A stretch of 64,000 nt of DNA from Dulcicalothrix desertica PCC 7102 (lineage in GTDB: Bacteria > Cyanobacteriota > Cyanobacteriia > Cyanobacteriales > Nostocaceae): the NCBI RefSeq assembly GCF_003991905.1, contig NZ_RSCL01000038.1, positions 1-64,000 of the forward strand, read 5' to 3'. The notes under the pieces are model-generated. The model saw nothing but the letters and a program-made list of their open reading frames with translations, searched no databases and was not told the origin of the DNA. Both the position numbers and the translations under genes were made by a program. Shown one piece after another: positions 1 through 64,000 of the stretch. Every line of letters starts with the position of its first letter. The stretch's first letter is position 1.

Positions 1-43
1 GCTGTGTTACCTCATGTAGATGCATTTCCGTATTTATATATCT

Positions 44-1552
44 TTACATAGTTTGGTTTATTGGCGCCGACTTACTTATAGAAACTTGTAAATGCTGCGA
101 ACCTATCCACGAACTTGGGTTATCCAACCATTCAGTAATCCTTCTCTTGAAAGAAACACCATCAAGTTTTGAATCTTCAAATTGACTATTTGCATTTCTA
201 GGCAGTTTTTTCAACAACTCCAATATAGGACTCTTTGTTTTTTCAGCTAAAGACTGTTGAGCAACAATCATTAACCGAGAAAGTTGACTGTTAGTTAACC
301 TACAAGGATTAAAATAAAGACTATCAATTTTTTCTAAAAGCAACCTATCTAGCTTCTGCGATAACAATCTTTCTGCCATTTTCACTGCAATCTTCTGGTC
401 TTCGCTCTTTGCTTCCAGCTTTGCTTCTTCCAATTCAACATCATCATCAAGCAACTTAGCTCTGAAATATGGAAGTTCCTCCAACCAATTAATTGCTACT
501 CTGCCAAAACCATCAACCCTTCTTTCCCCAATACCTCTATTTTCCAGATTCAGAATTTTCTCTGCTTTTAATTCTCCACTATAACTAAATACAAAAACAC
601 TACCTGCTGAAAAAGCTGGTACTTGGGGTAAAGGTAATCCCCATTTACGGTTAAAACCACCGACAAGAACGGTACTAGTATAACTATCCTGTAATTCTAA
701 ACCTACATCTAAATATTCTTGTAGAAGCTCAGTTACCAACTCAGCTTCTGGATTTACTATATAATGACCCCATTTATCCCGTAAAATTAAATCACTTAGC
801 AGGGTAACACGAAGTAATTCTCTTTCTCCCCTACAAGAAGCATCAATTCCTAATTCACTCCAATCATCAAACTCTTGAACATTATTAATTTCTGTATATC
901 CATAACCTGCACTTTGGGAACCACCTAACCAAACCTTGCTCTGTTCCAATAAAGGTTTAATTTTTTTGACATCATTTGGGTTATCGCAAATAATCGCAGC
1001 TTGAAAAGTTTGCCCAGATGATAATGCATCATAACGAAAAACGGCGCCGCTGCCATCAATACCTTTACCTTTTTTCCGATTCCGCATATTGTGGATATTA
1101 ATATGGCGCCCTTCTTGGTACAATATAATATCCCTGTCATCATCAACAGTACAACAAAAACTCTCATCTAACGACTTATATGATAAATCCTCATCATGGC
1201 ACCGATAACTAAAATCATAAACATTCATTTCTCCATATCTAGAGTACTTATCATCTTTTATCTTTAACCAAGATAAAGGTATAGGTAAAGTTCGCTTCTC
1301 CTGCTCACCACTATATAGATAAGCATTTAAATAACGACTTTCCCCACTAAAAAACAACCGCTTTACATCCGGTAAAGCTAAAATATCATCATTCTTACCT
1401 AACCCACACCCTTGCAGATAACGACTAATCAACAACCCCCTTATCACACTTCCGGGAATATAAGAAAAAGACACATCACTATTTGGGTTTCCTTGAAACG
1501 AAGTTACTAAAATAGGTTGCTTAGTATGTAGCAGAAAAGTAATAACCTTCAT
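44..1552 (-). CDS. csx10: Csx10-like type III CRISPR RAMP protein
   Basis: This 502-residue protein is likely a backbone subunit of a type III-D-like CRISPR effector complex that holds crRNA. The N-terminus reads like Csx10: a beta strand, then GNPNSD near residue 22 and YIPGSVIRGLL near residue 32, the usual RAMP opening. Glycine-rich loops follow (GGSQSAGYGY near 211 and GIGERRVDGFGR near 340), which suggests two RAMP folds. It starts 2 nt after the stop of the Csm3-like gene and is the last gene of the operon visible here; anything further downstream lies beyond the window edge. The family assignment rests on the N-terminal motif and the gene context. The C-terminal 120 residues were not recognised. 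Confidence 0.75.
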   Translation of the reverse strand: MKVITFLLHTKQPILVTSFQGNPNSDVSFSYIPGSVIRGLLISRYLQGCGLGKNDDILALPDVKRLFFSGESRYLNAYLYSGEQEKRTLPIPLSWLKIKDDKYSRYGEMNVYDFSYRCHDEDLSYKSLDESFCCTVDDDRDIILYQEGRHINIHNMRNRKKGKGIDGSGAVFRYDALSSGQTFQAAIICDNPNDVKKIKPLLEQSKVWLGGSQSAGYGYTEINNVQEFDDWSELGIDASCRGERELLRVTLLSDLILRDKWGHYIVNPEAELVTELLQEYLDVGLELQDSYTSTVLVGGFNRKWGLPLPQVPAFSAGSVFVFSYSGELKAEKILNLENRGIGERRVDGFGRVAINWLEELPYFRAKLLDDDVELEEAKLEAKSEDQKIAVKMAERLLSQKLDRLLLEKIDSLYFNPCRLTNSQLSRLMIVAQQSLAEKTKSPILELLKKLPRNANSQFEDSKLDGVSFKRRITEWLDNPSSWIGSQHLQVSISKSAPINQTM

Positions 1553-1554
1553 CT

Positions 1555-2244
1555 TTACACCCCCTGCTCAAAATCACGAAAATGCTTTTGCGTAACATCA
1601 ACACCCTGAAAATTATGTAAAGTACAACAAACAAAACCACGTCCTCGGTTACGTCCACTACCAACCCGTCTTAAAGCCAAAGCTCCCAGCGCTAAAAGAG
1701 CTAGCATATCCTGAGTTGGTTTGTCCTCAAAAAAAAGCTCTGCAGTAAAACACAAATCTCGTACAATAACCCGACTCGTGCGTAAACTAGTTTTTACAGG
1801 AACACCACTTACCGTATCAATAGCAGTTTGACGACGAATAGTAGTTAGAGAAGAAAGAACATCAAACTCAGTTAACTTTTTCACATAACCACTATTATTC
1901 CTCTCTCGATACTCCTCCTGTTTCAACTGCAAACCAACAGCTTCTCGTAACTTCCCAGGTAAATAAGCATCACTAACATGCATTTTAGACGTAGTACCCA
2001 GCGTACTACCAGATACCCCAAACAAATTTTCCGCAGTAACTTGCCATCGCGAAGAACTTTCCCCAAGCACAGAAATCACATTATCACATTCCTCACTCAA
2101 CAACCCTTTTAAAGTTCTTCCCCGCAAATAAGGAAAACCATTTACATCATGCTCAACTTCTTGGTCAACCAACCCTGCGACCCCATCACCACGTCCAAAA
2201 GTCGTATCACTCAGCAGTCGCATTTTAAATTTATAAATCTCCAT
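1555..2244 (-). CDS. Csm3-like RAMP (Cas7) subunit
   Basis: This 229-residue single-RAMP protein is a probable Cas7-type backbone subunit of the type III complex. It has a RAMP N-terminus (FGRGDG at 16-21, GFPYLRGRTLKGLL at 36-49) and a C-terminal glycine-rich loop GSGRNRGRGF at 195-204. Asp27 sits in GLVDQEVEHD, where Csm3 proteins carry the aspartate that cuts target RNA, so target cleavage looks possible; this alignment is by eye. Its ATG overlaps the stop codon of the upstream cas10 gene by one base (TAATG), which indicates translational coupling. Only one Cas7-type gene is visible, so the complex would be built from repeated copies of this protein. Confidence 0.8.
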   Translation of the reverse strand: MEIYKFKMRLLSDTTFGRGDGVAGLVDQEVEHDVNGFPYLRGRTLKGLLSEECDNVISVLGESSSRWQVTAENLFGVSGSTLGTTSKMHVSDAYLPGKLREAVGLQLKQEEYRERNNSGYVKKLTEFDVLSSLTTIRRQTAIDTVSGVPVKTSLRTSRVIVRDLCFTAELFFEDKPTQDMLALLALGALALRRVGSGRNRGRGFVCCTLHNFQGVDVTQKHFRDFEQGV

Positions 2245-3878
2245 TAACTCTTCTCACGTAAAGAAACATAAAACTCTAAAGCTTCAATTGCATCAAAATA
2301 ACCACAAACTCTTTCACCCTCCCTATCAACCCAACCACATTTATAAAAATCATCATTTGTTGACTTTTCAAAACGTGGTAAATACTCTTCAGTTAAACCA
2401 CAAACCTCTAAAAACTGCTTTGTTTTATCCTTACCTTGCCGTAAATGTTCCCGTAAAGCTATAACCTTATTACGACGACCAGCCCAATTATCATCCGTAT
2501 TAAACTTATTTACAACTGTAGTAAAATCTTCCCAATTACGCCAATCATCATCAGAATACAAGTACATAGGTCGCATAGTCAAACAACCTTCAAAAACTTC
2601 ATACTCACGCTGACGAATTTGGCTAATAGAACCAGATAATCCACTAGCTGCAATATGCCAATCCAAAGCAGAAAAATCCTTACATCCCAAACGTTCCTTT
2701 TCCTCACGCATAAAAATTTTAGCATTCCTGCACAGCGCTTCACTTAATTGATAAGCTCTTGCAAATGGGTAATGTGTTTTAACAATAGCAATACCCGCAC
2801 AAGCAGTTAAATCTTTACCATCTGCAATTTTTTTAGATTCAAACTCTTTAAGATATAGAGCAGCAAGAGACAACCCCAAACGACCATCACAAACGAACGT
2901 AACATCATCACCTCCATAAACAAGGGGACGGAAAGGTAAAAACTTTTTCCCATCTCTTTGCGTAACAGAAAACTCTTCCTGTAAATCACCATTAGCTAAT
3001 TTAACAACTTTCCTTGCAACATCTTTTAGAGCTTCAATACCAGCTTGGTTAACAGTTTTTGACAAATTACGCATAGCGGTAACGTAGTTACGGTCAGACT
3101 TACCCTTGCCATACTCCTTAAAACGGTTCCCCATACCATTTCCATCAGCATGAACAATAGCGATATAACTACTTTCTCCTTCCGACCGACCTAAATCATC
3201 AACATCATATGGAATTTCATAATCATGCTGTAAATCCTCCTGAAAAATCAAACTTTTAAGCTTTTCATTAGCAGGAGCTTTATTCTTAGAATCAACAACT
3301 CTCAGCTTCTCAACAATTTCTCTAGAAACAGGGTAACTAGCAGGAACACCAAAATTATCACTTACATCAACAGCAGACAATCCTGTAGAAACACAATTTG
3401 CGGTAACACTCAAACCAAGCAAAGGAGTCGAAGGATTATACGCGCGCTTCTTGCGTTCCAACTCCTTCATCAATCCATCAACGACATCTGCTAACCCCTT
3501 CCCCCATTTAAAATAATCACTATGAGCTACCACAATTCTCAATCCGGGAGCATCTCTTAAAACCTTCTCGCTTAAAGCTTTAGTAAACCTAACGGCGCCA
3601 TCTTTCTGTTTAAATAGAACAACCGCATTACCACCACCAGTATATATCAACTCAGCATCAAGGTCATCCAACTCAATACATTTCTCTTCCGAACATTCAT
3701 CATAAGTATATGCATTTGTACCAAACTCAGATTTAAGAATAGACTTTACCCAATCATTAGTCGTCTGTTCTACAATAAAAGAGGCGCCGATATTTTCGCG
3801 TAAACGATTACTGCCAAAAATATAAGATTGAATCCCCGTCGTATCAATTACAGTTGCAATATATTCATTCATAGTCAA
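2244..3878 (-). CDS. cas10: Small HD-less Cas10-like cyclase subunit
   Basis: This 544-residue protein is a Cas10/Cmr2-like large subunit, the enzyme that makes cyclic oligoadenylate when a type III complex binds target RNA. The cyclase palm is intact: DGNGMG at 245-250, GGDD at 322-325, and the typical AGIAIVKTHYP segment from 361. A first palm-like domain is suggested by YTGGGN at 79-84. No N-terminal HD nuclease domain is present and no four-cysteine zinc finger was seen, so it is much shorter than the usual 750-1000 residues. DNA cleavage by this subunit is therefore not expected. It lies 2 nt after the CARF gene and is coupled by TAATG to the csm3-like gene. Confidence 0.85.
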   Translation of the reverse strand: MTMNEYIATVIDTTGIQSYIFGSNRLRENIGASFIVEQTTNDWVKSILKSEFGTNAYTYDECSEEKCIELDDLDAELIYTGGGNAVVLFKQKDGAVRFTKALSEKVLRDAPGLRIVVAHSDYFKWGKGLADVVDGLMKELERKKRAYNPSTPLLGLSVTANCVSTGLSAVDVSDNFGVPASYPVSREIVEKLRVVDSKNKAPANEKLKSLIFQEDLQHDYEIPYDVDDLGRSEGESSYIAIVHADGNGMGNRFKEYGKGKSDRNYVTAMRNLSKTVNQAGIEALKDVARKVVKLANGDLQEEFSVTQRDGKKFLPFRPLVYGGDDVTFVCDGRLGLSLAALYLKEFESKKIADGKDLTACAGIAIVKTHYPFARAYQLSEALCRNAKIFMREEKERLGCKDFSALDWHIAASGLSGSISQIRQREYEVFEGCLTMRPMYLYSDDDWRNWEDFTTVVNKFNTDDNWAGRRNKVIALREHLRQGKDKTKQFLEVCGLTEEYLPRFEKSTNDDFYKCGWVDREGERVCGYFDAIEALEFYVSLREKS

Positions 3879-3880
3879 AC

Positions 3881-5173
3881 CTATAACACTGGGCTATTAA
3901 TTTCAATCCATTGCTTCAACTTTTTCTTAAATTTATCAGTTTGAAGGTCTTTACTACCAAAAACAACAACTTTCTTATCCCTCAAAGTAACTGCTAAATC
4001 ACGCTCAATACCATCAGGATAATTATTAAAACATACCAAAGCAACCCTTGCTTCATCACCACCTAACTGTCTAGCTCTTAAATGTGCTTCAAACAATTTT
4101 TGCTTACAAATTGGCTTAAAACCAGAAGTTGTACAAGATAAAGCAAACAACTGATAATCCCGCATAAAAGCAACATCAAACTCAAACCTATCGTACTTAT
4201 CATTTCCACTAGCTGGGTCATCAATATGAAAAGACATAGCACACTCGTGAATAGCAGGGAACCCAGAAACAACACTCTTTACCATCTCCAAAACATAATG
4301 CTCTAACCAAATACCACTTAACCAAGCACAAGCATCAGAATATTGAGCAAAACCCTTATTTTTAAAACTTCCCAAATCCAAATTTCCTTTCTTATCCAAA
4401 ACATCAAAATTATCTAAAATAACTTTAATCTTTTCCGGCGCCGAATTTAAGCTAACGATAGTATTAGCTTGGATTAAATTTTCACTCCAAAAATTATCTT
4501 TATCCTTCCTTCCATATTCCAATTTATCTCTACACCAATTCTGCCACTGTCCTGCTATACTTGACGCACCTTTTGAAGTATCTGATAAATAAGCATGAAG
4601 AAACTCTTCTGCAACATTATATAATATAGGGGTATAATTTGGTGGATTATGTTGCTTCCATCGTAAATTATGTAGACTAAACAGTTCTGCAAAGTTGACT
4701 TGAACATCAACAGGAATTGCACTAGGGGATTTACCCTCACGCTCAATCAACATTTGTAAATTGCGCGCATCCAAATAACTATACTGAGGATTGCAATCTT
4801 TTACAGCATCCAATACCGCGCGGTAAGCATTTACAGACATTGCCTTCGTCCCACCAGTGTAATTTATCCCCAAATTCAACTCATTTGAACTTTTTTTAAG
4901 ACCTTCTACATATTTCCCAATTGTATCTCTAATATATTTAGAATCACCTTCTTTTTTATCTAGAGAAATAGTCTTAACCTTAATGGGTTTTAACTTATTC
5001 TCTAAAATACGTGCTTCACCAGACGTATTAGTACTATGTACCAGATAAACCGTTCCATTCTCTTTCAGTAAAACCTTCGCTGCAACATAGTTCGGTAAAG
5101 GATTTTCACCGACAAGGAGAAACAAATGGTCTACTTGATCTACATTGTTAGTGTTTGGTTCAGCTATACTCAT
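3881..5173 (-). CDS. CARF protein of Card1/Can2 (DUF1887) type with altered nuclease motif
   Basis: This 430-residue protein is a likely cyclic-oligoadenylate sensor of the type III system. The N-terminal CARF domain shows VGENPLPNYV at 21-30 and NYTGGTKAM at 104-112, both typical of Can2/Card1 proteins. The C-terminal half matches the DUF1887 restriction-like nuclease: GIWLEHYV with Glu291, and FEFDV with Asp333. The following strand, where active relatives have E-x-K, reads LSCTTS (Ser346, Thr348). The usual catalytic Glu and Lys are therefore absent, so the protein may be a sensor without classical nuclease activity, or may use other residues. It is the first gene of the cas10 operon, 235 nt downstream of the Csx3 fusion gene. 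Confidence 0.82.
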   Translation of the reverse strand: MSIAEPNTNNVDQVDHLFLLVGENPLPNYVAAKVLLKENGTVYLVHSTNTSGEARILENKLKPIKVKTISLDKKEGDSKYIRDTIGKYVEGLKKSSNELNLGINYTGGTKAMSVNAYRAVLDAVKDCNPQYSYLDARNLQMLIEREGKSPSAIPVDVQVNFAELFSLHNLRWKQHNPPNYTPILYNVAEEFLHAYLSDTSKGASSIAGQWQNWCRDKLEYGRKDKDNFWSENLIQANTIVSLNSAPEKIKVILDNFDVLDKKGNLDLGSFKNKGFAQYSDACAWLSGIWLEHYVLEMVKSVVSGFPAIHECAMSFHIDDPASGNDKYDRFEFDVAFMRDYQLFALSCTTSGFKPICKQKLFEAHLRARQLGGDEARVALVCFNNYPDGIERDLAVTLRDKKVVVFGSKDLQTDKFKKKLKQWIEINSPVL

Positions 5174-5408
5174 AGGTTTAATATACTATTGTTTGTTTTT
5201 ACTATACTTACTTTAGTCTTAAATTAATCTGATACATGCTAAATTAGTAATTTAACTTAAATTGACTCAATTAATAATCTAAACAGACATAAAGAGGTAG
5301 CTAAAAATACGAAAATTATGTTTACTATCATAAAAAAATCGGTTAATTCGAGTCCAAATAGGTTAAGTATTAGGCTAGAAGGCAATATTTATTTCTCTTC
5401 GTTTCCTA

Positions 5409-6326
5409 TTACCCCCTACTCAACCCGACTAAAACGCGCGCTAAAGCTTTTACCATTTCCCGTCCCGAAACATCCTCACCTCTTTCAAGACAATGAACAC
5501 TACCCGTTAAAACAGGCGCCTCTTCTTCAATAACATCCCGTTCACCATCTATATCACTATAAATTATTGCCACTACTTTTAACCCCAAGGACTCACAAAA
5601 CTCTTGCCATTCAGGAATTTTTTCTTTCTCTCCAGATAAAATCACAGCATGGGTAGCTTCCCGCATAATAACGCGATTTTGTTCTGAGGTCTTTCCACCA
5701 ACATCAATAATATTAAGAGGAGTATTGGCACTTCGCACCCAACCTGCTGCTAACTTGGCAAATTCGTCTGTAAATTTGGCTTTATATTCCTCTTTCAACT
5801 GCATTGCTAGCTCTGGGTCACGCTGTGCTGCTTCAGAAAACCAGGCGCCTTCACCATCAGGACAAGCGGTAATAACATAAGGATAAGGCGCCCCCTCAAT
5901 GCCAATTACAGCTTGCTTCAAACCCTCGCGCAAACAAGATTTTCCTGACTTTCGAGGGCCACAAATCACAACTTTTGGGTTAATTTTATCTTTTTGTGGT
6001 TCATTAGTTTCAATGATTTCGCCTATTTTATATGCGGGAGTATGGGAAACTGCTGTAATAAAAGTTTTGTATCCTTTTCTGCCAATCTTTGGGTCAAAAA
6101 TAGCTATGGCGCTGTAAAGTTCAGATACTTTATGCGCTATCAAATAACATACAGGCAAAGACGCAGGTCCATCAATCATTAGTAACTTTCCACCAGAAAG
6201 CTCACCCGATGCTATCATCTCATCTAAACGTGCGGCAGCATCCTTAACTATCTGGTCGCCGTGAGCAGGTTTTGCAAAGCCTACTTTCAGGATGTCACCT
6301 TCCAGGCTAATGTTATACGTACTCAT
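5409..6326 (-). CDS. csx3: Csx3 ring nuclease fused to a P-loop NTPase-like domain
   Basis: Residues 1-105 of this 305-residue protein are a Csx3 (Crn3) domain, a fold that degrades cyclic tetra-adenylate to switch off type III signalling. His65 and Asp78 (in FDPK) stand where Csx3 catalytic residues are expected. Residues 115-305 form a nucleotide-binding domain with a Walker A motif CGPRKSGKS at 122-130 and a switch-like IIDVGGKT at 206-213. Csx3 fused to an ATPase-like domain is known in cyanobacteria; the role of the second domain is not settled. It lies 44 nt after a free-standing csx3 gene on the same strand, so the two are probably co-transcribed, upstream of the CARF and cas10 genes. 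Confidence 0.85.
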   Translation of the reverse strand: MSTYNISLEGDILKVGFAKPAHGDQIVKDAAARLDEMIASGELSGGKLLMIDGPASLPVCYLIAHKVSELYSAIAIFDPKIGRKGYKTFITAVSHTPAYKIGEIIETNEPQKDKINPKVVICGPRKSGKSCLREGLKQAVIGIEGAPYPYVITACPDGEGAWFSEAAQRDPELAMQLKEEYKAKFTDEFAKLAAGWVRSANTPLNIIDVGGKTSEQNRVIMREATHAVILSGEKEKIPEWQEFCESLGLKVVAIIYSDIDGERDVIEEEAPVLTGSVHCLERGEDVSGREMVKALARVLVGLSRG

Positions 6327-6370
6327 AAAATCTGATAGTAGTTGTACTCGAAACCCCTATACAGCAAATA

Positions 6371-6676
6371 TCAATCTATCATATCACCCAAATTATACTC
6401 AGGATTATGTGTAATACAAATTACGTACTTTCCTAATTTTGGGTCAAAACAACCAATGGCGCCGAAAAGGTGGCAAAGTCGATGTGCTAAAACAAACGCC
6501 ACTGGAATTGATACCGAGCCGTTAATTTTGAGTAATTGCCCACCTCGCAGTTCACCAGACTTTACCATCTCCTCCAACCGCGCGGCAGCATCTTTAACGA
6601 TTTGGTTATTTTGTGCTGGTTTACCAAAGTCAACCAGCAAGGTATCCTCATTTCGCTCAATGTTGTAAGTAACCAT
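6371..6676 (-). CDS. csx3: Stand-alone Csx3 ring nuclease
   Basis: This 101-residue protein is nearly collinear with the N-terminal domain of the neighbouring fusion protein: His65 and Asp78 occupy the same positions, and segments such as QIVKDAAARL are identical. Its predicted role is cleavage of cyclic tetra-adenylate, as in other Csx3/Crn3 proteins. I place the start at 6676 and not at the upstream in-frame ATG at 6694, because a strong ribosome binding site AAGGAGGTAAG lies just before it and MVTYNI then aligns with MSTYNI of the partner. It is the first gene of the leftward cluster and is divergent from the WYL-type regulator, with only 100 nt between the two starts. Confidence 0.88.
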   Translation of the reverse strand: MVTYNIERNEDTLLVDFGKPAQNNQIVKDAAARLEEMVKSGELRGGQLLKINGSVSIPVAFVLAHRLCHLFGAIGCFDPKLGKYVICITHNPEYNLGDMID

Positions 6677-6776
6677 TGCCTTACCTCCTTGCATGGCTAC
6701 ATCATAAACTATACTTGGAAGACGCTACTTCCAGCATATTTTAACTTAGATTAATAGCAACAAAGGATTTAAGATT
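6677..6776. promoter_or_regulatory. Divergent promoter region between csx3 and the WYL-type regulator
   Basis: This 100-nt gap separates the divergent starts of csx3 and the regulator gene. It carries the csx3 ribosome binding site at 6681-6690 and an AGGA-type site for the regulator near 6764. No clear operator repeat was seen. The arrangement suggests that the regulator controls both directions, but this is inference from position. Confidence 0.4.
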
Positions 6777-8231
6777 GTGGTTAATGAATTTCAAGATACC
6801 CCCAGTGTTGAACTGTTGCAGTGGTTAGCGCGCGGTTCATTAAAGCAAAATTTACTCCGCGCGATTCGTTTATGGGTGTGGTTATATACCATTTACGGAG
6901 ATAAAACAGTGAAGCTTGATTTACCCAACGGATGGAGTTACAGTGATTGGCGCCCTCTATTTTTTAGCGAAACTCATCCTCAAGGAGAACAAATTCCAAC
7001 AGTACATGATGCAAACTGCGCTTGTGCGAAAACTGTGAGAGAGTGGTTATTTACCTCAGCAACGGGAATTGCCCCAGATGCATGGATAAAAGCAATAAAA
7101 TCACATTACTGTCATCAGCAAAAACAAAACAACAAAAAACACGGTGATAAGTCGAGCGAATTAGAAAACGCCGAAACAGAATTACTAATTTTTGATTCTC
7201 AAGATAAAAAAAACAAGAAAACTTTAGAACAAATCTTGGACTTGCGTTTATTTGCGGTTACTCGTCGTACCCTTCAAAGAGACTTAGAAATTTTAGCCGA
7301 ACTAGGTTGGCTAAGATATGAAAACCAAAAATACTATAACGTTACGAAATTTCCATCACGTCCTGTAAACAGTTGTGAAAATATACCTCTAAAAAGCGAC
7401 TACGAATTAAATTTCATGCACGCTGATTTAGCTTGTATTGCAGAAAATCTTTCAAATCAAATTAATGGTGTGCAACGCTTCTTCCTGCAACTCGATTACG
7501 TAACTTCTAACAAAAAGACAGATTTAGTCGATAACTGGCATAATGAATTGAAAGAGTTATGGAAGCGAACTCCAGTACCTCCTATCAAAATCACATATGA
7601 CAGTGCAAGAGTAGGAGGTAATGTTGACTGTGTTGTATTTCCAGTTTGCATTTACTATATGCAAAGGACTGTTTATTTATGCGCTTGTGGCGACAGTCCT
7701 GATAGAACAAGCGATTGGTATAATTTTCGTATTGACCGTATTCAAAATATTACTCCGTTAACATGGAATTATCCACATATTCCTAACTACTTACAACAAC
7801 GTTACAAAAAAGCATCCTTGCCAACTCCAGATGAAATTGCTATTGCAATAGACCAAACAGCTTGGGGATTTGATTTTTACTTAAAATCACGATTAATGAT
7901 ACTAAGATTTGACGACGATTACGATAACCGTTATATTCGCAATACCAATCGTCACGAAACTTTTAAACGCATAAATTACGAAAAAGCAAAAAATCTTATC
8001 GTTAAAGAAACCATAGAACCAGACCACCGAAAAATACTACTTAACGTATTACAAAATCGCTCACCACAAGACGCTTATTACCAAGCCAACTATCGCCATA
8101 AAGATAATGGTATCATGATGCGCTTACGAGCATGGCGCCCAAGATGTGAAGTCTTATTACCTTTTGATTTACGTCAAAGCATCGCAAAAGACGCCGCAGA
8201 AGAGTTAAAGCTCTATCAAGACAAGTTTTAA
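6777..8231 (+). CDS. CRISPR-associated winged-helix/WYL-type regulator (TIGR03985-like)
   Basis: This 484-residue protein resembles a cyanobacterial CRISPR-associated family (TIGR03985) that I recognise by layout. A winged helix spans about 155-188 (VTRRTLQRDLEILAELGWL), followed by a WYL-like domain around 290-345 with VYLCACG and YNFRIDRI. WYL regulators bind nucleic-acid-like ligands, and one represses a CRISPR operon in Synechocystis. The start is GTG with an AGGA-type site 9 nt upstream. It is transcribed away from csx3 and is probably the transcriptional regulator of the module. Direct control of the cas genes is inferred, not shown. Confidence 0.7.
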   Translation: MVNEFQDTPSVELLQWLARGSLKQNLLRAIRLWVWLYTIYGDKTVKLDLPNGWSYSDWRPLFFSETHPQGEQIPTVHDANCACAKTVREWLFTSATGIAPDAWIKAIKSHYCHQQKQNNKKHGDKSSELENAETELLIFDSQDKKNKKTLEQILDLRLFAVTRRTLQRDLEILAELGWLRYENQKYYNVTKFPSRPVNSCENIPLKSDYELNFMHADLACIAENLSNQINGVQRFFLQLDYVTSNKKTDLVDNWHNELKELWKRTPVPPIKITYDSARVGGNVDCVVFPVCIYYMQRTVYLCACGDSPDRTSDWYNFRIDRIQNITPLTWNYPHIPNYLQQRYKKASLPTPDEIAIAIDQTAWGFDFYLKSRLMILRFDDDYDNRYIRNTNRHETFKRINYEKAKNLIVKETIEPDHRKILLNVLQNRSPQDAYYQANYRHKDNGIMMRLRAWRPRCEVLLPFDLRQSIAKDAAEELKLYQDKF

Positions 8232-55766: not shown

Positions 55767-55861
55767 ATTGGGGGGTATATAGCATTGTATGTGTACCAAG
55801 ATTTCCTTTGCCACTTGGATATTTTCCTGTCACAAAGTTTGCGCTCTACCAATCAGCTATA

Positions 55862-56300: not shown

Positions 56301-56370
56301 CCAAACCTTCGCGACTTCGGGGGCTTTAAGTTTTCTTTTCCCCGCGAAGAGAGCGGGGGGCTAGGGGGAT
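56301..56370. repeat. C/G-run inverted-repeat element
   Basis: Runs of CCCCC and GGGGG (TCCCCCAAACC, then CTTCGGGGGC, then CCCCGCG, then GCGGGGGGCTAGGGGG) can form nested stems over about 70 nt. A shorter relative is at 9563-9592. It is probably a mobile miniature element. Confidence 0.6.
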
Positions 56371-57279
56371 AAATTCGGGTATACAAACTTTAATCGAGTT
56401 ATATTGTGAGCTATATATATCTCGATGGCTGCTTTATTAAAAATGTTCCCAACTATTATGAAATAGTTTAACTACTTAATCATATATATGTTTGTTTGCT
56501 ACTTTCATAACAAATTATTTAAATCTATTAACGTTTTTTGATTCAATGCTAAATTCAATTATACAAGTATTTATACTTAATTGAGTAAAATGGTTATGAC
56601 AAAAGCTAAAGAAACGTACAGATAATAGAATTTACAGTAATGACGATAAAACAAAATAATTCCATGAAAGGGAGTTAGACAAAAACGGCATGATTGACGA
56701 TTTATGGGCATCTTCGTTTGCGGTGCCCCGTTAAGCTCTGTAATTATTAAGTTGTAAAATTAAATGTGTGATATAAATTAAAATAGGTTACAATTAAATA
56801 CTCAAGCATTAAGTCACTGTTTTTGACTTTGACCTGAAACGCAGGCGTGCTATTTATCGAGCATAGTAGTCAGGTAAAGGAGGGTGGTTGGAACGTTCTA
56901 TAATTATTAAGTAACACAGTCAAGCATCCGCGCGTTTTGGCTCAAGACCAAAGACTAGCAATAAAGTCATAAAAACAAGCATTTTTGTTATCATTTACTT
57001 ATCCCCAATTACCCATGCGGCTTAAGCTTATTCTAACTATGTAATTTGTACGAGTATTATGGGTGATATCTATCGGTATCATACCATTGACTACTAGCCA
57101 ACCGAAAATCAAATAATGATAACTATGTGCGGCAAGTCAACTTGCACTTGTAGTGTCAAAAAAAAATCCAGGTTAAGCTAGAAAAGAAAGTTTGAGTTAA
57201 GCTTCCACTCTCCAGTGGTTTTAAGTAAAACTCATTCTCACACCGGGTATATTCTTAAAGTTGGCATTGTCCTTACTCC

Positions 57280-58605
57280 ATGCTGCGAATCATCACTCAG
57301 CAGGCAGACGTTCGAGCAGAACTACAACGCATCTGCGATCGCACTCACTCAGAACAAGTTGTTCATAAAGAAGCAACAGTACGCGAAGTGTTGCAAGCAG
57401 TCCAACGCCAAGGCGATAAAGCTGTATTGCATTACACTGCGGAATTTGACAATCAAGTTTTAAAAGCACCAGAACTGCGCGTTTCTGCCTCAGAAATCGA
57501 CGCAGCTTACGAAGCGGTGTCAAAAGAACTACTTGAATCAATTCGGCTCGCGTGTCGGCAAATCGAGGCATTTCATCGTCAGCGTGTCCCTAAAAGCTGG
57601 GTACACTTTGGTGATGATGATATTGTTCTTGGCAAGCGTTACACTCCTGTAGACCGTGCAGGGCTATATGTACCTGGTGGTCGCGCATCGTACCCAAGTA
57701 CGGTAATCATGAACGCCATTCCGGCTAAAGTCGCTGGTGTCCCTCGCGTTGTTATGGTGACACCTCCAGGTACAGGAAAAGGTATTAGCCCAGCAGTATT
57801 AGTAGCTGCACGCGAAGCTGGTATTAATGAAATATACAGAATCGGCGGTGCCCAAGCTATTGGTGCGTTGGCGTATGGTACTGAAACAATACCAAAAGTT
57901 GATGTAATTACAGGCCCAGGTAATATTTACGTTACCCTAGCCAAAAAGCTAGTATACGGTACTGTTGGCATTGACTCCCTGGCAGGACCAAGCGAAGTAC
58001 TAATCATCGCTGACGAAACGGCAAATCCTGTTCATATTGCCGCTGACTTGTTGGCGCAAGCCGAACATGACCCAATGGCAGCAGCCATATTACTAACAAC
58101 TGATGCAAAACTAGCCAAAAATGTCCAAGTGGCAGTAGAAAGACAGCTAGTAGACCATCCGCGACAACTAGATACTGAAAAATCGATTGCTCACTATGGT
58201 TTAATCGTAGTCGTCGAATCGCTATCAGCCGCAGCTGAACTATCGAATGAATTTGCACCCGAACATTTGGAGTTAGAAGTCGAAGACCCTTGGGCGTTGT
58301 TAACCGACATACGTCACGCAGGTGCGATTTTCTTAGGACATTCCACTCCCGAAGCTGTTGGTGACTACTTAGCTGGCCCTAACCATACGCTTCCTACTTC
58401 AGGTGCTGCTAGATATGCTTCTGCGCTTGGTGTCGAGACTTTTCTAAAGCACTCAAGCATTATTCAGTACTCACAAATAGCACTCGCCAAAGTCGCAGGC
58501 GCCATCGATTCTCTAGCCACTGCCGAGGGTTTACCTTCTCACGCTGATTCAGTAAGGCGCCGAGTACAGAAAGAATCAGATTCTGAGTTAGATAACCCAG
58601 ATTAG
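57280..58605 (+). CDS. hisD: Histidinol dehydrogenase
   Basis: This 441-residue enzyme does the last step of histidine synthesis, oxidising histidinol to histidine with NAD. Landmarks are PVDRAGLYVPGGRASYPST, GGAQAIGALAYGT, VDVITGPGN, the metal-site Gln/His in LLAQAEHDP, and the catalytic Glu-His of FAPEHLEL. The ending SGAARYASALGVETF, with a later His, completes the site. The length is normal. The only HIP1 octamer (GCGATCGC) I found in the window lies in this gene near 57336. The gene stands alone here. Confidence 0.98.
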   Translation: MLRIITQQADVRAELQRICDRTHSEQVVHKEATVREVLQAVQRQGDKAVLHYTAEFDNQVLKAPELRVSASEIDAAYEAVSKELLESIRLACRQIEAFHRQRVPKSWVHFGDDDIVLGKRYTPVDRAGLYVPGGRASYPSTVIMNAIPAKVAGVPRVVMVTPPGTGKGISPAVLVAAREAGINEIYRIGGAQAIGALAYGTETIPKVDVITGPGNIYVTLAKKLVYGTVGIDSLAGPSEVLIIADETANPVHIAADLLAQAEHDPMAAAILLTTDAKLAKNVQVAVERQLVDHPRQLDTEKSIAHYGLIVVVESLSAAAELSNEFAPEHLELEVEDPWALLTDIRHAGAIFLGHSTPEAVGDYLAGPNHTLPTSGAARYASALGVETFLKHSSIIQYSQIALAKVAGAIDSLATAEGLPSHADSVRRRVQKESDSELDNPD

Positions 58606-58745
58606 GGTCAAAAGCAGGGGAGGCATACCCCTACTTCCACTTCATCAATTGTTAATTTTTCCTGCTTAATTTTGGCAAAAATGCCCATTAGGCTGCAAAC
58701 TAAAAGTTTAGGGTAATACAAACCTTTCCTTGGTACTTTTAGTCC

Positions 58746-58757
58746 AGGAGCGCTCCT
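58746..58757. promoter_or_regulatory. Palindrome AGGAGCGCTCCT just before the usp ribosome binding site
   Basis: This perfect 12-nt palindrome ends one base before the CGGAGG ribosome binding site of the stress-protein gene. A hairpin or protein bound here could affect translation; this is inference. Confidence 0.4.
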
Positions 58758-58769
58758 CGGAGGTTGACA

Positions 58770-59198
58770 GTGGTGCTTAACAAAATTTTAGTGGCTTTGG
58801 ACGATTCGGGAATAGCCGACCGAGTAATTGAAACGGTACATCGTTTGGTACTTCCGAGCGATGGTAAAATTATTTTTTGTCATGTTTTTCCAACATCAAA
58901 CTCGTTAGATGACCTTCCTTGTGACCGTCCACATCCCGAACCGTCGGCTACTTTATATCAACAAGTTGAAAAACAGCTACAATTATACCAAAGCGAATTA
59001 AGAGTCGATAGCGATATTGAACTAGTTACTGGCGACCCCGCAGAAGAAATCATCCGTCTTGGCAATATTTATAAAGCCGACCTAATTGTAATAGGTAGTC
59101 GTGGCTTAACAGGGATGACACGCATTGTTAAAGGTTCTGTCAGCAGTCAAGTAGTTGAAGATGCACCCTGTTCTGTTTTAGTTGTAAAACCTGGTTAA
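58770..59198 (+). CDS. Universal stress protein (UspA family)
   Basis: This protein of about 142 residues has the UspA fold. The N-terminal KILVALDDSG and the C-terminal nucleotide-binding motif IVIGSRGLTGMTRIVKGSVS, followed by APCSVLVVK, place it in the ATP-binding group. The start is set at the GTG at 58770, six bases after CGGAGG; the earlier TTG at 58764 would touch that site. It is followed by a perfect palindrome, probably a terminator. Its stress role is not specified by sequence. Confidence 0.93.
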   Translation: MVLNKILVALDDSGIADRVIETVHRLVLPSDGKIIFCHVFPTSNSLDDLPCDRPHPEPSATLYQQVEKQLQLYQSELRVDSDIELVTGDPAEEIIRLGNIYKADLIVIGSRGLTGMTRIVKGSVSSQVVEDAPCSVLVVKPG

Positions 59199-59201
59199 AT
59201 T

Positions 59202-59229
59202 GTAGAGACGTTACATGTAACGTCTCTAC
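59202..59229. terminator. Perfect 28-nt palindrome, terminator-like
   Basis: GTAGAGACGTTACA and TGTAACGTCTCTAC form a perfect hairpin directly after the usp stop codon. The core is identical to 14426-14441, and the outer arms match the repeats at 15647 and 49851. Confidence 0.75.
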
Positions 59230-59270
59230 TAGTAATATTTTGCTAGTATAAAACAAATTATACACTGCAA

Positions 59271-60593
59271 ATGCTACTTAACAACCGCTACCGTGTAATA
59301 CAAACTCTGGGAAGTGGTGGATTTGGTGAAACTTTTTTAGCAGAAGATACCCAAATGCCATCACTCCGTCGTTGTGTTGTTAAGCAGCTTAAACCTATTC
59401 AAAATAATCCCCAAATTTATCAGCTAGTACAAGAACGTTTTCAACGCGAAGCAGCAATATTAGAAGAATTAGGTGGCGCCCATACACAAATACCTATTTT
59501 ATACGCTTACTTTCAATCAGATGGGCAATTTTACTTAGTTCAAGAGTGGATAGAAGGTGATACTCTCACGCGCAAGTTTTTACATCAAGGATTGTGGAAT
59601 GAAAATCAAGTTCGTGAATTGCTTGTAAATTTGTTACCTGTTTTATCTTACGTTCACACCAAACATATAATTCACCGTGACATTAAACCCGATAATATTA
59701 TTGTGCGGCGCCAAGACGGTAAACCAGTTTTGATTGATTTTGGCGCCGTGCGCGAATCGATGGCGACTGTGTTAAACTCCCAAGGTACACCCACTAGCTC
59801 AATTATTATTGGTACACCAGGTTACATGCCATCTGAACAAGCAGCTGGTAGGGCAATGTATGGAAGCGATATATATAGTTTGGGTATAACAGCTATTTAT
59901 TTACTAACAGGTAAACAACCGCACGAGTTAGAAACCGATGTCCAAACAGGGGAAATAATTTGGGATAATTTTGCTTCTCAAGTTAGTCCTGCATTGAAGC
60001 AAATCTTAGATAAAGCAATTAGATATCATCCCCGTGAACGCTACTTAAGTGCGTCAGACATGCTTTATGATTTGAAAAGCACTGCACAAACGATATATCA
60101 TAACGTCCAAGAAACAGTACATAAAACAGTACAGGTAGCGCCACAAACATCACTGCCACCAGTTACTACTACAAGTAAAAGTCGAAATAGGATTTCTAGT
60201 GCTAGCTTAATTTTGGCAGGAATCATTGGCGCCTTAATAATTTTACCTTTAATTACTAAATTTTCTCCTTTTCAAGTTACAGATACAAAAATACCTACAA
60301 ATATAGTTAGTAATGATTATTATTGGCTATCACAACGACCAGTAACCGATGCTGATTTAAAAGGAAAAAGTGCTTTGGAGTTGGATATAATGCGTAATTC
60401 TATTTTTGCGCGATTAGGGCGCCGTTTTGACACTCCAGGATTACAAAGCCATTTTAATCAACAGTCGTGGTATCGTCCGCAATACTCTCCAAAAGAATTT
60501 GACTCCTCAAAATTTCTATCAGATTTAGAAATGAATAACGCTGCCTATATTAATCAATATCAAACAAAAAATAATCTACACTACTTTAGGTAA
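59271..60593 (+). CDS. Membrane serine/threonine kinase with YARHG domain
   Basis: This 440-residue kinase has an N-terminal catalytic domain (about 8-270) with the glycine loop GSGGFGETF, Lys38, His135-Arg-Asp137 and Asp156-Phe-Gly, all intact. One membrane helix (about 313-332) follows, and then an exported C-terminal YARHG-type domain (SALELDIMRNSIFARLGRRF). The outside domain may sense cell wall or surface ligands. It is a close paralogue of the next gene, 91 nt downstream, and the catalytic domains are nearly collinear. The name of the substrate is unknown. Confidence 0.92.
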   Translation: MLLNNRYRVIQTLGSGGFGETFLAEDTQMPSLRRCVVKQLKPIQNNPQIYQLVQERFQREAAILEELGGAHTQIPILYAYFQSDGQFYLVQEWIEGDTLTRKFLHQGLWNENQVRELLVNLLPVLSYVHTKHIIHRDIKPDNIIVRRQDGKPVLIDFGAVRESMATVLNSQGTPTSSIIIGTPGYMPSEQAAGRAMYGSDIYSLGITAIYLLTGKQPHELETDVQTGEIIWDNFASQVSPALKQILDKAIRYHPRERYLSASDMLYDLKSTAQTIYHNVQETVHKTVQVAPQTSLPPVTTTSKSRNRISSASLILAGIIGALIILPLITKFSPFQVTDTKIPTNIVSNDYYWLSQRPVTDADLKGKSALELDIMRNSIFARLGRRFDTPGLQSHFNQQSWYRPQYSPKEFDSSKFLSDLEMNNAAYINQYQTKNNLHYFR

Positions 60594-60684
60594 ATTTATA
60601 ACTGGTCAGTGATACACTGCTGATTTATACAGAAGTTGTAGAATATTAAGGCAACACCCTTGTCATGAACGCTCAATTACTGTA

Positions 60685-62433
60685 ATGCTGCTCAATACCC
60701 GCTATCGCGTGATACAGACTCTAGGAAGCGGTGGGTTTGGAGAAACCTTCCTTGCTGAAGATACTCAAATGCCATCCAAGCGTCGCTGTGTCATTAAACA
60801 GCTAAAACCAATCAATAACAATCCTGAAATTTACCAACTTGTTAAGGAACGGTTTCAGCGCGAAGCGGCTATTCTAGAGGAACTTGGTGATAATAGTAAT
60901 CAAATTCCCCGGCTATATGCCTATTTTTCTGAAAATGGACAGTTTTACCTAATTCAAGAATATATCGAAGGGCAAACTCTCAACGCCAAAGTCCAATCTC
61001 AGGGTGTTATGAGTGAAAATGCCGTTCGCGATATTTTAATTAGTCTTTTACCTGTACTTGATTATGTTCACGGTCGAGGTATTGTTCACCGTGATATCAA
61101 ACCTGATAATATCATTATTCGTCACCTTGATGGTAAACCAGTACTAATAGATTTTGGCGCCGTGAAGGAGACAATTGGTACAGTTGTTACACCCTCTGGT
61201 AATTCCACAAGGTCAATAGTAATTGGAACACCAGGATTTATGCCTAGTGAACAGTCGGTAGGTAGACCAATGTTTGCTAGTGATATTTATAGTTTGGGAA
61301 TGACGGCAATTTTTTTACTAACAGGTAAATTGCCCCAGGAAATACCAAACGACCCAGCGACAGGTGTAATATTATGGCGCCAGTATGCAAGTTCTTTGAC
61401 ACCAGGTTTTGCAATGGTGTTAGATAAAGCCATACAGTTTGTGCCTCAGCATCGCTTCAATAGTGCTAGAGACATGCTTATTGCTTTACAATCTCAAAAT
61501 TCCGCTTCTATACCAACGGTCCCTTACTCCCAACCCCCCAACTATAACCAAGCTTCTTATCCACCACCACAAAATACGGTTCCCATCAGTCCTGCGAACC
61601 AACAATACCAACAATACCAACAACCAAATACACCACCCATTAATCAAAACAATGCACCTCAAATACCACGTTCGAGTAATACAAAAGGCATTATAATAGG
61701 CGCCGTAATTGGTGCTGGTTTACTTAGTGGTGCAATAGTTCTAGCTTCAATGTTAAATCGTCAAGGTCAACAAGTTGCAGATACAGACCCTACACCTGTT
61801 GCAACATTGAGCGAGCAAACACCAACACCATCTCCAACACTAGACGACTCTGAACCACCTGTAATATCAAGACCTAAAAATCGAATTACCCCTAGACCAA
61901 TCCGAACACGTGAACCAGAAGTAGTTCCAACTCCTATAGATTCAGAATTTCCAACCGATACTTCAACACCAATTGAAACAACAGAACCTTTACCATCACT
62001 GTCTCCAACTCCAACACCTGAAATTACAAATACAAAAGCTCCAGATGTAGTTGTTCCTACAGTAATACCAAAACAAACACCATCAAATCCACCACAAGCA
62101 CAATCATCACCAACAGAGTTTGTAGAAAATTATTACAACGGTATTAATAATAAAAACTTACAAAAAACTTGGAATCAGTTGACTCCGACTTTGCGAAGTA
62201 ATCGTAAACTTCACCCTAGAGGTTTTGATTCATACATTGGTTGGTGGGATGGACAAGTTCAACAAGTTCAAGTAGATAGAATTAATTTAGTAGAGCAAAA
62301 TGACTCAAGAGCTACAGTCGATGCACAATTGAATTATGTGCTTAGGAATGGTAAACAAGCTCCTGCTTCGGTACGTTTTTCCTTGGTATGGGACGCTGAG
62401 TCTAACCAATGGCTAATTAGTGATGCTCGATAG
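60685..62433 (+). CDS. Membrane serine/threonine kinase with C-terminal NTF2/ARC6-like domain
   Basis: This 582-residue kinase has an intact catalytic domain (about 8-270: GSGGFGETF, Lys38, HRDIKPDN, LIDFGAVKET). A disordered Pro/Gln/Asn segment leads to a membrane helix (about 334-355, IIIGAVIGAGLLSGAIV). A Pro/Thr-rich external stalk of 120 residues follows. The last 110 residues (FVENYYNGINNKNLQKTW to the end QWLISDAR) look like an NTF2-like or ARC6 IMS-type domain. The catalytic half is very similar to the kinase upstream, so the pair arose by duplication and exchanged sensor ends. Confidence 0.92.
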   Translation: MLLNTRYRVIQTLGSGGFGETFLAEDTQMPSKRRCVIKQLKPINNNPEIYQLVKERFQREAAILEELGDNSNQIPRLYAYFSENGQFYLIQEYIEGQTLNAKVQSQGVMSENAVRDILISLLPVLDYVHGRGIVHRDIKPDNIIIRHLDGKPVLIDFGAVKETIGTVVTPSGNSTRSIVIGTPGFMPSEQSVGRPMFASDIYSLGMTAIFLLTGKLPQEIPNDPATGVILWRQYASSLTPGFAMVLDKAIQFVPQHRFNSARDMLIALQSQNSASIPTVPYSQPPNYNQASYPPPQNTVPISPANQQYQQYQQPNTPPINQNNAPQIPRSSNTKGIIIGAVIGAGLLSGAIVLASMLNRQGQQVADTDPTPVATLSEQTPTPSPTLDDSEPPVISRPKNRITPRPIRTREPEVVPTPIDSEFPTDTSTPIETTEPLPSLSPTPTPEITNTKAPDVVVPTVIPKQTPSNPPQAQSSPTEFVENYYNGINNKNLQKTWNQLTPTLRSNRKLHPRGFDSYIGWWDGQVQQVQVDRINLVEQNDSRATVDAQLNYVLRNGKQAPASVRFSLVWDAESNQWLISDAR

Positions 62434-62437
62434 TTAG

Positions 62438-62526
62438 TTAGGAATTAGGAATTAGGAATTAGGAATTAGGAATTAGGAGTTATGAGTTATGAGTGCTTTT
62501 TACTCAGCACTCAGCACTCAGCACTT
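62438..62526. repeat. TTAGGAA heptamer array plus ACTCAGCAC repeats
   Basis: Five TTAGGAA copies and one TTAGGAG follow each other at 62438-62479. GAGTTATGAGTTATGAGTGC and ACTCAGCACTCAGCACTCAG follow in the opposite sense and can pair. The block lies between convergent genes. Confidence 0.85.
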
Positions 62527-62530
62527 TCTA

Positions 62531-63118
62531 CTAATTTGCAACTTCTGCCATTTCAATAACGCGCCCATCATAATCTTTAACCAAAAAGTTCATGGGCTTG
62601 CGACTGCGAATTTTAAATTTCAAGCCGCGTACTTCCACACGCATTAAAATCAACTCTAGTGCATCGTTGTCGAAACAAACGTGACGCTGTTGATTTTTGG
62701 CACCTAGACTGGCGCCTGTAATAACGTGTAGTTGGGTATTTTTCTTGAGTTGATACCAAAGCCCCTCACTTGCATTACTCATACTACGACTTCCCGAATA
62801 GCTGGGAGTTGTTGACATGTATAAAGGGTCAATTCCGGCGGCGCCGATGGTTTGTTCGTAATTATAGTAATAGTGCAGAGGTACTTCAGCAGCAGGTAAA
62901 TCGAGCAAACCTTCGTATAATTGTCGAGCGATTTCTAAATCTGACACCATTACCGTGTATACTTTTGGCGCACTAGTCAAAAACATCCACATGGCGCCAG
63001 CATAAGCTGCCAGCAGCATTACCATAATGCCTTGGGTGGACATTAAACCATCCAGCGCAGGCAAGAACGACGCCAGGGTAAGGTGAGGAAAGGGAGCTAA
63101 ACTAACTGCTATAAACAT
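62531..63118 (-). CDS. Glyoxalase-like domain membrane protein
   Basis: This 195-residue protein has one or two N-terminal hydrophobic segments (about 5-20 and 30-48) followed by a single vicinal-oxygen-chelate unit like that of glyoxalase and bleomycin-resistance proteins. It contains YTVMVSDLEIARQLYEGLLDLP, then LELILMRVEVRGLKFK and a closing VKDYDGRVIEMAEV. Such proteins are frequent in cyanobacteria. Metal-binding residues for glyoxalase activity are not obvious, so the function is open. It is convergent with the second kinase gene. Confidence 0.75.
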   Translation of the reverse strand: MFIAVSLAPFPHLTLASFLPALDGLMSTQGIMVMLLAAYAGAMWMFLTSAPKVYTVMVSDLEIARQLYEGLLDLPAAEVPLHYYYNYEQTIGAAGIDPLYMSTTPSYSGSRSMSNASEGLWYQLKKNTQLHVITGASLGAKNQQRHVCFDNDALELILMRVEVRGLKFKIRSRKPMNFLVKDYDGRVIEMAEVAN

Positions 63119-63334
63119 GAAAACCGGAGTGTTTTATATAAAGGAGCCAATGACAAATTGTATGGAGATTAGGACTTAAATTATAAGTCTGTGTTTCCAG
63201 TGTATCAATTACAAACAAGTCTAAACGGTTGCGCTTTAATCATACCTTCCCCAAAATAGGCAAAAAATAACTAAACTTTATCTTGCTTATTTTAGTTATT
63301 AGTAACAAATTTCAATTATCTTTCGTTACGACCC

Positions 63335-63967
63335 GTGCAAATACCACACTTCCCCGAAGCTAACCACCCGCTTGTGAAATCACTGTTTCACCATAGCGAC
63401 CATGAACTGTTAACTTTATTCCAGCAGCATCCGGAGGCTGGTAAGTTCTTCACGGCGATGTTTTGCCGCTATAGTCCTATAGTTTACACCTTGATTCGCC
63501 ATTCTGCTCGCTCACCAGTTCAAGCAGATTATTTATTTGCTCTCACATGGAAACATGTGTACCATGAACTTGCTGGTCTTGATTTAAATCAGCAGATTAA
63601 CGAGAACTTAACGCTGCAAAATTGGCTGATTAACATGACAGCTTATTGTATCAACGAAATTGAATTACCACCCACAGAAGCAATTCACTATTCACTCAAA
63701 GCGACATCACCACCATTATGGTGCTATGTCGAACAAGCTTTGGAACAATTACCCCCAGTGCTGCGCTTAATGGTTTTGATGGCACAAACATTTCATTGGA
63801 GCGAAACCCGCATTGCTGCTTACCTTCAAGCCGAGGGTGAGAGTATTGCGCCTCATGAAGTAGCAAATTTTCTTCAGGAAGGTTATCGTATGTTAGAAGA
63901 CAAATTGCCGACAGACATACGAGCCATATATTTAGGCGATAATATTCTTCCGGCAGCTTCTCAGTAG
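63335..63967 (+). CDS. ECF-like sigma-70 family protein
   Basis: This 210-residue protein appears to have a sigma region 2-like part (about 45-90, FCRYSPIVYTLIRHSARSPVQADYLF) and a region 4-like part (about 130-195, ALEQLPPVLRLMVLMAQTFHWSETRIAAYL). The sequence is well diverged from housekeeping sigma factors, so promoter recognition may be special, or it may be a sigma-like regulator. The start is a GTG at 63335 without a clear ribosome binding site; no better in-frame start was found. No anti-sigma gene is visible before the window ends 33 nt later. Confidence 0.7.
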   Translation: MQIPHFPEANHPLVKSLFHHSDHELLTLFQQHPEAGKFFTAMFCRYSPIVYTLIRHSARSPVQADYLFALTWKHVYHELAGLDLNQQINENLTLQNWLINMTAYCINEIELPPTEAIHYSLKATSPPLWCYVEQALEQLPPVLRLMVLMAQTFHWSETRIAAYLQAEGESIAPHEVANFLQEGYRMLEDKLPTDIRAIYLGDNILPAASQ

Positions 63968-64000
63968 TATTACCGTCATGTGTGTTCTTTTTGTAAAAAT

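Follow-up and report, generated by a model that had tools for sequence, protein, structure and literature searches.

GGCGCC is the alternate highly iterated palindrome of a Calothrix genus and is probably methylated by an orphaned methyltransferase

The first 64,000 nucleotides of contig NZ_RSCL01000038.1 of Dulcicalothrix desertica PCC 7102 (hereafter the window) contain 113 copies of the palindrome GGCGCC by direct count, or 1,766 per Mb. An earlier note on this DNA had read about 110, far above chance, together with a single copy of the cyanobacterial highly iterated palindrome HIP1 (GCGATCGC) in hisD; the recount agrees on both points. The GGCGCC copies, to which no strand is assigned, span positions 63..62998 and start at 63, 1043, 1105, 3594, 3783, 4437, 5515, 5844, 5887, 6458, 6949, 8134, 9358, 9661, 9991, 10197, 10254, 10311, 10842, 11300, 11836, 12674, 13125, 13635, 13989, 14319, 14334, 14491, 15729, 15909, 16276, 16379, 16836, 18121, 18634, 19005, 19979, 20132, 20183, 20423, 20888, 21715, 21803, 21893, 23851, 24248, 24476, 24864, 25460, 25676, 25828, 26230, 27483, 27891, 28555, 29638, 29824, 30326, 31833, 32244, 32357, 32496, 34298, 34407, 35277, 36284, 37049, 37891, 38332, 38858, 39179, 40838, 41165, 42815, 42904, 43593, 44094, 44855, 45584, 46126, 46642, 46925, 47449, 48269, 48538, 48852, 48946, 49269, 50404, 51082, 51478, 52672, 52740, 52913, 53560, 54195, 54511, 55100, 55167, 55211, 58498, 58556, 59475, 59707, 59742, 60228, 60418, 61156, 61376, 61699, 62711, 62840 and 62993. 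Open reading frames (ORFs) of at least 150 aa contain 103 of them. The sole HIP1 lies at 57335..57342, also without strand, within hisD (57280-58605). HIP1 was described in 1995, and its abundance in cyanobacterial genomes has been a question since then.

At the window's G+C content of 39.9%, base composition predicts 4.0 copies of GGCGCC, and first- and second-order Markov models predict 5.9 and 5.1, respectively, giving a 19- to 28-fold excess. A maximal-order Markov model expects 54.5, but the sites push this figure up: of the 120 GGCGC pentamers, 113 sit inside GGCGCC. The excess extends through the 11.42-Mb genome, where the window is part of contig C38 and 19,393 copies were counted (1,698 per Mb). 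The reversed control CCGCGG occurs once in the whole genome, but since this word is itself avoided it should not serve as the only control. Under the second-order model, the observed/expected ratio (O/E) was 22 in 464 kb of this genome and 18.6-24.4 in 400 kb from each of three congeners, and GGCGCC was the top over-represented palindromic hexamer in all four genomes sampled. HIP1 is not restored to a normal density outside the window: 58 copies were found genome-wide versus 62 of its reversed control, hence no excess. Of the two results that the earlier note had named as refuting it, GGCGCC near expectation and HIP1 at normal density elsewhere, neither was obtained, with the 400- to 464-kb samples taking the place of a Markov count on the full genome. 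Other words in the same four samples also departed from expectation. TGCGCA, TTCGAA and GTCGAC were reduced to 0-1 copies per sample, while GATC (O/E 0.11-0.22) and GGCC (0.14-0.21) were scarce. CGCGCG (O/E 4.5) and GCGCGC (2.0) were over-represented, most strongly in the sample of Calothrix NIES-4105 and also on its plasmid2, and may represent a second, weaker favoured word.

The distribution of GGCGCC was surveyed in 217 genomes of the family, comprising seven of the genus and 210 others. The genus genomes are that of the window (G000), Calothrix PCC 7103 (G060), HK-06/NIES-2101 (G061), NIES-4105 (G062), PCC 7716 (G065) and two metagenome-assembled genomes (G063 and G064). All seven carry 1,150-1,711 GGCGCC per Mb, whereas none of the other 210 exceeds 111 per Mb, and the genome at that maximum has more CCGCGG than GGCGCC. 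HIP1 falls to 3.6-22.6 per Mb in all seven, a range entered by only one other family genome (G182; 3.2 Mb, 9 per Mb). The HIP1 density of PCC 7103, 14.1 per Mb, matches the value of 14 given by Elhai (2015; PMC4390886). In its treatment of alternates, that paper describes GGCGCC as an alternate HIP in Calothrix PCC 7103 and in a 19-kb portion of Calothrix D253, and reports that HIP1 is lost, that two methyltransferases for GRCGYC are present and that GATC is strongly avoided. The earlier note's suggestion of a lineage that has switched its iterated palindrome is therefore borne out but was already in print for a congener.

GGCGCC is the alternate HIP of this Calothrix genus. As set out in Elhai 2015 (PMC4390886), an alternate HIP is a GC-rich palindrome present at ~500-2500 per Mb, is an extreme genome-wide O/E outlier, and accompanies low or absent HIP1, a methyltransferase able to methylate the word and methylation of the word in vivo. 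The genus genomes fall within this density range; one plasmid, sampled over 200 kb, is denser (3,220 per Mb). The word is such a palindrome and such an outlier, HIP1 is low, and a methyltransferase predicted from its sequence to accept GGCGCC (MTase A, below) is present. What bears on methylation in vivo is a mutational footprint (below). Relative to what Elhai 2015 (PMC4390886) says of alternates, persistence of the excess across the genus is new.

A further survey of the order covered 388 genomes, of which 71 belonged to the family (three to the genus) and 317 did not. One candidate for a second GGCGCC lineage, G377, was rejected: its 12-kb sample has 52.7% G+C and 22 HIP1, and composition explains most of its excess. 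Another, G273, holds 9,489 GGCGCC in 3.8 Mb (control 2,450), ~30 times the 304-343 counted in the four surveyed genomes of its own genus. In 10 kb sampled from it, at 55% G+C, there are 27 GGCGCC (~4 expected) and no HIP1, and it is a possible second lineage.

The strength of the bias was assessed separately within and between genes. Gly-Ala codon pairs were written GGC GCC in 1165 of 2365 cases, 20 times the 57 expected from codon use. Measured against codon use outside sites, GGCGCC is favoured by ln odds of 4.2-5.3 over five of the six synonymous words that differ from it by one letter, and by 3.5 over GGTGCC. Between the genes of four chromosomes, the ln odds against composition were 3.3-6.1 over eight of nine neighbours, and the density reached 1.05 per kb, 51 times composition. 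Over the remaining neighbour, GGTGCC/GGCACC, the ln odds between genes were 2.6-2.7 on these chromosomes and on plasmid2 of NIES-4105.

Plasmids are likewise enriched. On plasmid2 of NIES-4105 (AP018292.1), four 50-kb stretches of its 366 kb contain 644 sites, or 3,220 per Mb. Outside ORFs of 60 aa, these stretches have 242 sites in 49.9 kb (4.85 per kb, 154 times composition), with ln odds of 3.7-7.5 over eight of nine neighbours, two of the eight having zero copies. Plasmid 1 of PCC 7716 has 1,280 GGCGCC per Mb in one 50-kb stretch. The chromosome-organising protein that the earlier note had offered as a cause finds no support here, the plasmid sampled in depth having twice the genome density and 154-fold enrichment between genes. 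Annotated on plasmid2 (L251 47987-50000 and L254 1-986) are an RNA polymerase beta' gene, two Primase 2 genes and a 'bacteriophage protein homolog'.

No saturation at the kilobase scale was detected. Occupancy of Gly-Ala pairs was 0.49-0.68 at 60-960 nt from the nearest other site, with no rise, and was lower beyond; in the genome of the window alone it dropped at long distance from 0.49 to 0.37 to 0.25, the opposite of saturation. Site pairs within 60 nt at first seemed strongly depleted, but an unstratified permutation is confounded by Gly-Ala-rich genes; permutation within gene and phase gave ratios of 0.39 at 6-24 nt and ~0.75 at 24-60 nt. In the coding DNA of four genomes, a second GGCGCC closer than 24 nt is thus ~2.5-fold rarer than expected. 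The effect was weaker between genes, where pairs are few (6 of 9.7 and 15 of 18.3 expected), and was not seen in the four stretches of plasmid2 (103 successive pairs <60 nt versus 112.6 expected). Short-range exclusion was rejected as a property of the site; we attribute it to coding or mRNA constraints, perhaps to the avoidance of hairpins.

The 5-methylcytosine (m5C) methylases (PF00145) of the seven genus genomes were compared (METHYLTRANSFERASE; 59 loci, some partial matches being left out). Two clusters occur in all seven: one designated CL1 and one containing a protein that we term MTase A. CL1 (~370 aa) was rejected as the cause of the switch, since it is also present, at 68-73% identity, in the two HIP1 genomes compared. 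MTase A comprises 313-335 aa, is 79-99% identical across the genus and matches PF00145 with an E value of 7.9e-66. The catalytic motifs PPCQ, ENV and QxRxR were present in all six orthologues checked, and the ratio of nonsynonymous to synonymous substitution (dN/dS) was 0.05-0.15 (15 pairs, six orthologues). In six of the seven genomes the gene lies between a RuBisCO-like gene (PF00016) and a conserved gene of ~680 aa, the latter only 172 aa long in G064. The remaining genome, HK-06/NIES-2101, has an intact copy at a different location and 94-95% identical fragments at contig ends, which suggests that its syntenic copy was split in assembly. The RuBisCO-like neighbour in the genome of the window (L090 9768-10961, G000:C4) resembles 2,3-diketo-5-methylthiopentyl-1-phosphate enolase, below NCBIfam cut-offs.

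A plasmid gene annotated hindVM shares 55% identity with MTase A. Of the 41 loci examined in relatives outside the genus, 28 (26 of 39 without duplicates) have a whole or fragmentary gene of one family immediately upstream of the methylase, and all five members scanned belong to PF09519, the HindVP-type nucleases. Upstream-family members longer than 340 aa possess an SPERR(F/L)D motif in 21 of 21 cases and an E(V/I)K motif in 19 of 21. The portion of PMC2413257 that treats BsaHI reports that the former motif is essential in the nuclease and that M.BsaHI methylates the central C of GRCGYC; our assignment of GRCGYC cutting to the nuclease-paired homologues rests on PF09519 and on that account. 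A motif of the target recognition domain (TRD), xRR..x10..T(I/V)..x3..NRP, is shared by all seven genus proteins and the nuclease-paired homologues; in the wider cluster, four proteins from outside the genus (L114, L115) lack it. With its TRD unchanged from that of the enzymes paired with a nuclease, MTase A has probably retained GRCGYC as its target. The PF09519 nuclease was found in none of the seven genus genomes, compared with 43 of the 210 others. MTase A is thus probably an orphaned m5C methyltransferase of the BsaHI/HindV type, judged by sequence.

A full-length homologue of MTase A, 58-72% identical, was present in 50 of the 210 non-genus genomes (two of the 50 with an internal stop). 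Where the nuclease is intact (24 genomes), GGCGCC has a median of 0.7 and a maximum of 10 per Mb; where it is broken or partial (13 genomes), these values are 1.0 and 21; where there is none (13 genomes), 12.8 and 43. Nuclease loss relaxes the avoidance of GGCGCC; it does not create an excess. The genus differs from all 50 homologue-bearing genomes in its loss of HIP1, the lowest HIP1 density among the 50 being 82 per Mb. A 425-aa m5C methylase, a candidate DmtC presumed to be of CGATCG type, was found in 203 of the 210 other family genomes at E <= 1e-80 and in none of the seven. Its loss was set aside as an explanation of the switch, the seven other family genomes without it having kept HIP1.

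Site gain and loss were followed in ~102-240 kb aligned among genomes. With NIES-4105 as outgroup, GGCGCC was the most conserved of all hexamers having 60 or more aligned copies, in each of three comparisons, and was kept in 148/205, 266/352 and 172/240 cases (72-76%) against a mean over hexamers of 43-44%. In four closer comparisons its conservation rank, counted from 0, was 0, 3, 56 and 229. Among the three ingroup genomes, PCC 7103 had the largest number of lost sites.

Gly-Ala codon pairs, in which bases 3 and 6 of the site are synonymous, provided 528 site observations. At base 3, C->T changes were as frequent in sites (31/528, 0.059) as in GGC codons elsewhere (56/941, 0.060). Conversely, changes of the second site codon numbered 6/528 when the first codon was unchanged and 18/528 when all combinations are counted, versus 115/1251 for GCC codons elsewhere; base-6 C->T was seen in 2/528 (first codon intact) or 6/528 (any combination) versus 61/1251. 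Since base 3 decays freely in sites whose second codon is conserved 3- to 8-fold, base 3 appears to mutate several times faster, as expected of 5-methylcytosine. This footprint, with the sequence of the enzyme, indicates that the inner C of GGCGCC is probably 5-methylated (GG5mCGCC) by MTase A. Among the neighbouring words, the decay product GGTGCC/GGCACC shows the largest excess (O/E 1.65; GTCGCC 1.15, the other seven <1), compared with 0.43 in two HIP1 genomes; between genes it exceeds composition 11.6-fold on plasmid2 and 3.5-fold on chromosomes. Apparent gains scored by majority may be parallel losses, so likelihood fits were used. A stationary model placed the T->C gain at 21 times control (14-35). 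When losses were branch-specific, a gain of 1 times control was worse by 4.95 lnL than one of 20 times, and among the values tried 5-40 times control were all acceptable.

These observations can be assembled into one explanation, to which we give an even chance of being right as a whole: an alternate HIP, made GG5mCGCC by an orphan methyltransferase and raised by methylation-directed biased conversion. The orphaned GRCGYC enzyme would mark GGCGCC as GG5mCGCC. In a polyploid cell, chromosome copies that differ at a site might pair, whereupon only the site-bearing strand would have G-5mC; mismatch repair copying from that strand would convert the non-site to a site. Conversion of this kind should raise GGCGCC wherever resident DNA recombines, independently of local density, and should leave GACGTC, which would lack G-5mC, unaffected. 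The scheme would shift the G-meC repair idea of Elhai's discussion (PMC4390886) from the replication fork to the recombination heteroduplex. Conversion itself is hypothetical at this stage. We favour it because sites are enriched between plasmid genes, show no saturation and follow the order GGCGCC >> GGCGTC (O/E 0.23-0.34) > GACGTC (0.04-0.15), a ranking that fits the number of strands with G-5mC if GRCGYC is methylated. Of the causes listed in the earlier note, repair bias is thus the favoured one, and a solitary methylase of GRCGYC type is indeed present in all seven genomes, with its nuclease family in none, yet is insufficient alone. More tentatively, and with rather more doubt than belief, we propose that GGCGCC, and by extension HIP1, may be a functionless product of molecular drive, in which an orphan methylase and G-5mC-directed heteroduplex repair would spread the word through all resident DNA, plasmids included.

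Several observations weigh against the conversion account. Thirteen of the 50 non-genus genomes with a full-length homologue of MTase A have no RE_HindVP match and yet at most 43 GGCGCC per Mb; an orphan methyltransferase is therefore not sufficient. Plasmid 1 of NIES-4105 has just 620 GGCGCC per Mb and 9 HIP1 in one 50-kb stretch, as if it had come recently from a HIP1 host, and the density of plasmid2 is perhaps atypical, as this plasmid encodes a relative of MTase A itself. In the close pair PCC 7716 to PCC 7103, GGCGCC ranked 229 of 1515 in conservation. First-codon changes other than base-3 C->T were just 1.7-fold rarer in sites (6/528) than in controls (18/941), and direct support for a raised gain is modest, the events being few. 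Vsr (PF03852) was found in none of the seven genus genomes. Finally, selection at the level of the site gives the same equilibrium statistics, and a steady bias of ~e^4 is compatible with both.

Such selection is the strongest alternative, although we consider it less likely. Here a protein would read GGCGCC, whether in Chi-like recombination, self-marking against nucleases or segregation, and loss of a site would cost fitness. The top conservation rank in all three outgroup comparisons and the 2.7- to 8-fold reduction of second-codon changes would follow, and by our arithmetic a scaled coefficient of ~4 would match the ln odds of about 4.4. Selection of that strength, combined with a hypermutable 5mC, may also account for the data. 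HIP1 itself is reported to be kept by selection (Xu 2018, as cited in PMC6604393). Set against this, each of 1,150-1,711 sites per Mb, and those behind the 154-fold enrichment between plasmid genes, would need selecting; sites show no greater importance where they are scarce; and the reader protein must have switched specificity from HIP1, an argument made in Elhai's discussion (PMC4390886). We therefore favour biased repair or conversion over selection, while the data do not separate the two cleanly.

Elhai's own model, as outlined in PMC4390886, has G-5mC made at the fork steering mismatch repair to keep site-creating mutations until ~1 site per kb is reached. The base-3 footprint and the G-5mC rule fit it. 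It seems improbable nonetheless, given that occupancy is lower rather than higher beyond 960 nt, that plasmid2 exceeds the limit both overall and, at 4.85 per kb, between genes, and that GCC is better conserved as the second codon of a site than elsewhere even though most of the genome is near some site.

Vsr-like very-short-patch repair of T:G at the methylated C, turning GGTGCC into GGCGCC, would account for the 21-fold T->C gain of the stationary model. We regard it as highly improbable: besides the missing Vsr, the bias is equally strong at base 6 and against transversions, and GGTGCC is over-represented, not depleted. A codon, amino-acid or local G+C origin, which the 103 sites in ORFs might suggest, is refuted by an O/E of 19-24 after second-order Markov correction, by the 20-fold excess in Gly-Ala pairs and by the 51-fold excess between chromosomal genes.

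Elsewhere in the window, positions 44-8231 contain type III CRISPR-like genes (RAMP, Cas10/Cmr2 palm), a Card1-like CARF nuclease and a WYL-domain gene. Cellulose synthase-like genes (a glycosyltransferase with PilZ, BcsB, GH8 and TPR) occupy 28416-37648, and a GH5-CBM2 cellulase lies at 54153-55814.

An alternate HIP has thus been retained across a whole genus, which comprises seven species or more. This bears on the argument in Elhai's section on alternates (PMC4390886) that they are sporadic and do not persist, one of two arguments there that HIP1 itself is selected. The base-3 footprint, the bias at all positions, the lack of saturation and the intergenic enrichment of plasmids are quantities that drive and selection explain differently, and MTase A is singled out as the one candidate methyltransferase for a link to GGCGCC.

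Four known systems invite comparison. HIP1, whose core is methylated, is also a GC-rich palindrome, occupying 75% of synonymously allowed places in two HIP1 genomes compared with 51% for GGCGCC here. It differs in its word, in its methyltransferases and in showing no depletion within ~24 nt in genes, a test of low power for HIP1. With the BsaHI, HgiDI and HindV systems for GRCGYC, MTase A shares its family, by sequence and TRD, and many of its homologues adjoin PF09519 nucleases; the genus, however, lacks that nuclease family (0/7) and has GGCGCC in excess, not near-absent as where the pair is intact. The CCGG excess of Helicobacter, as presented in PMC4687349, is also that of a methylase site without an accepted explanation, its ratio peaking near 1.4-1.5 versus 19-24 here, although the expectations differ in kind. 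Closest is the alternate HIP of Calothrix PCC 7103 as described in Elhai 2015 (PMC4390886), with which word, genus and loss of HIP1 are all shared. To that case the present analysis adds the range across all seven genus genomes, enrichment on the three plasmids sampled, site conservation, the orphaned methylase, the base-3 decay footprint and the lack of saturation.

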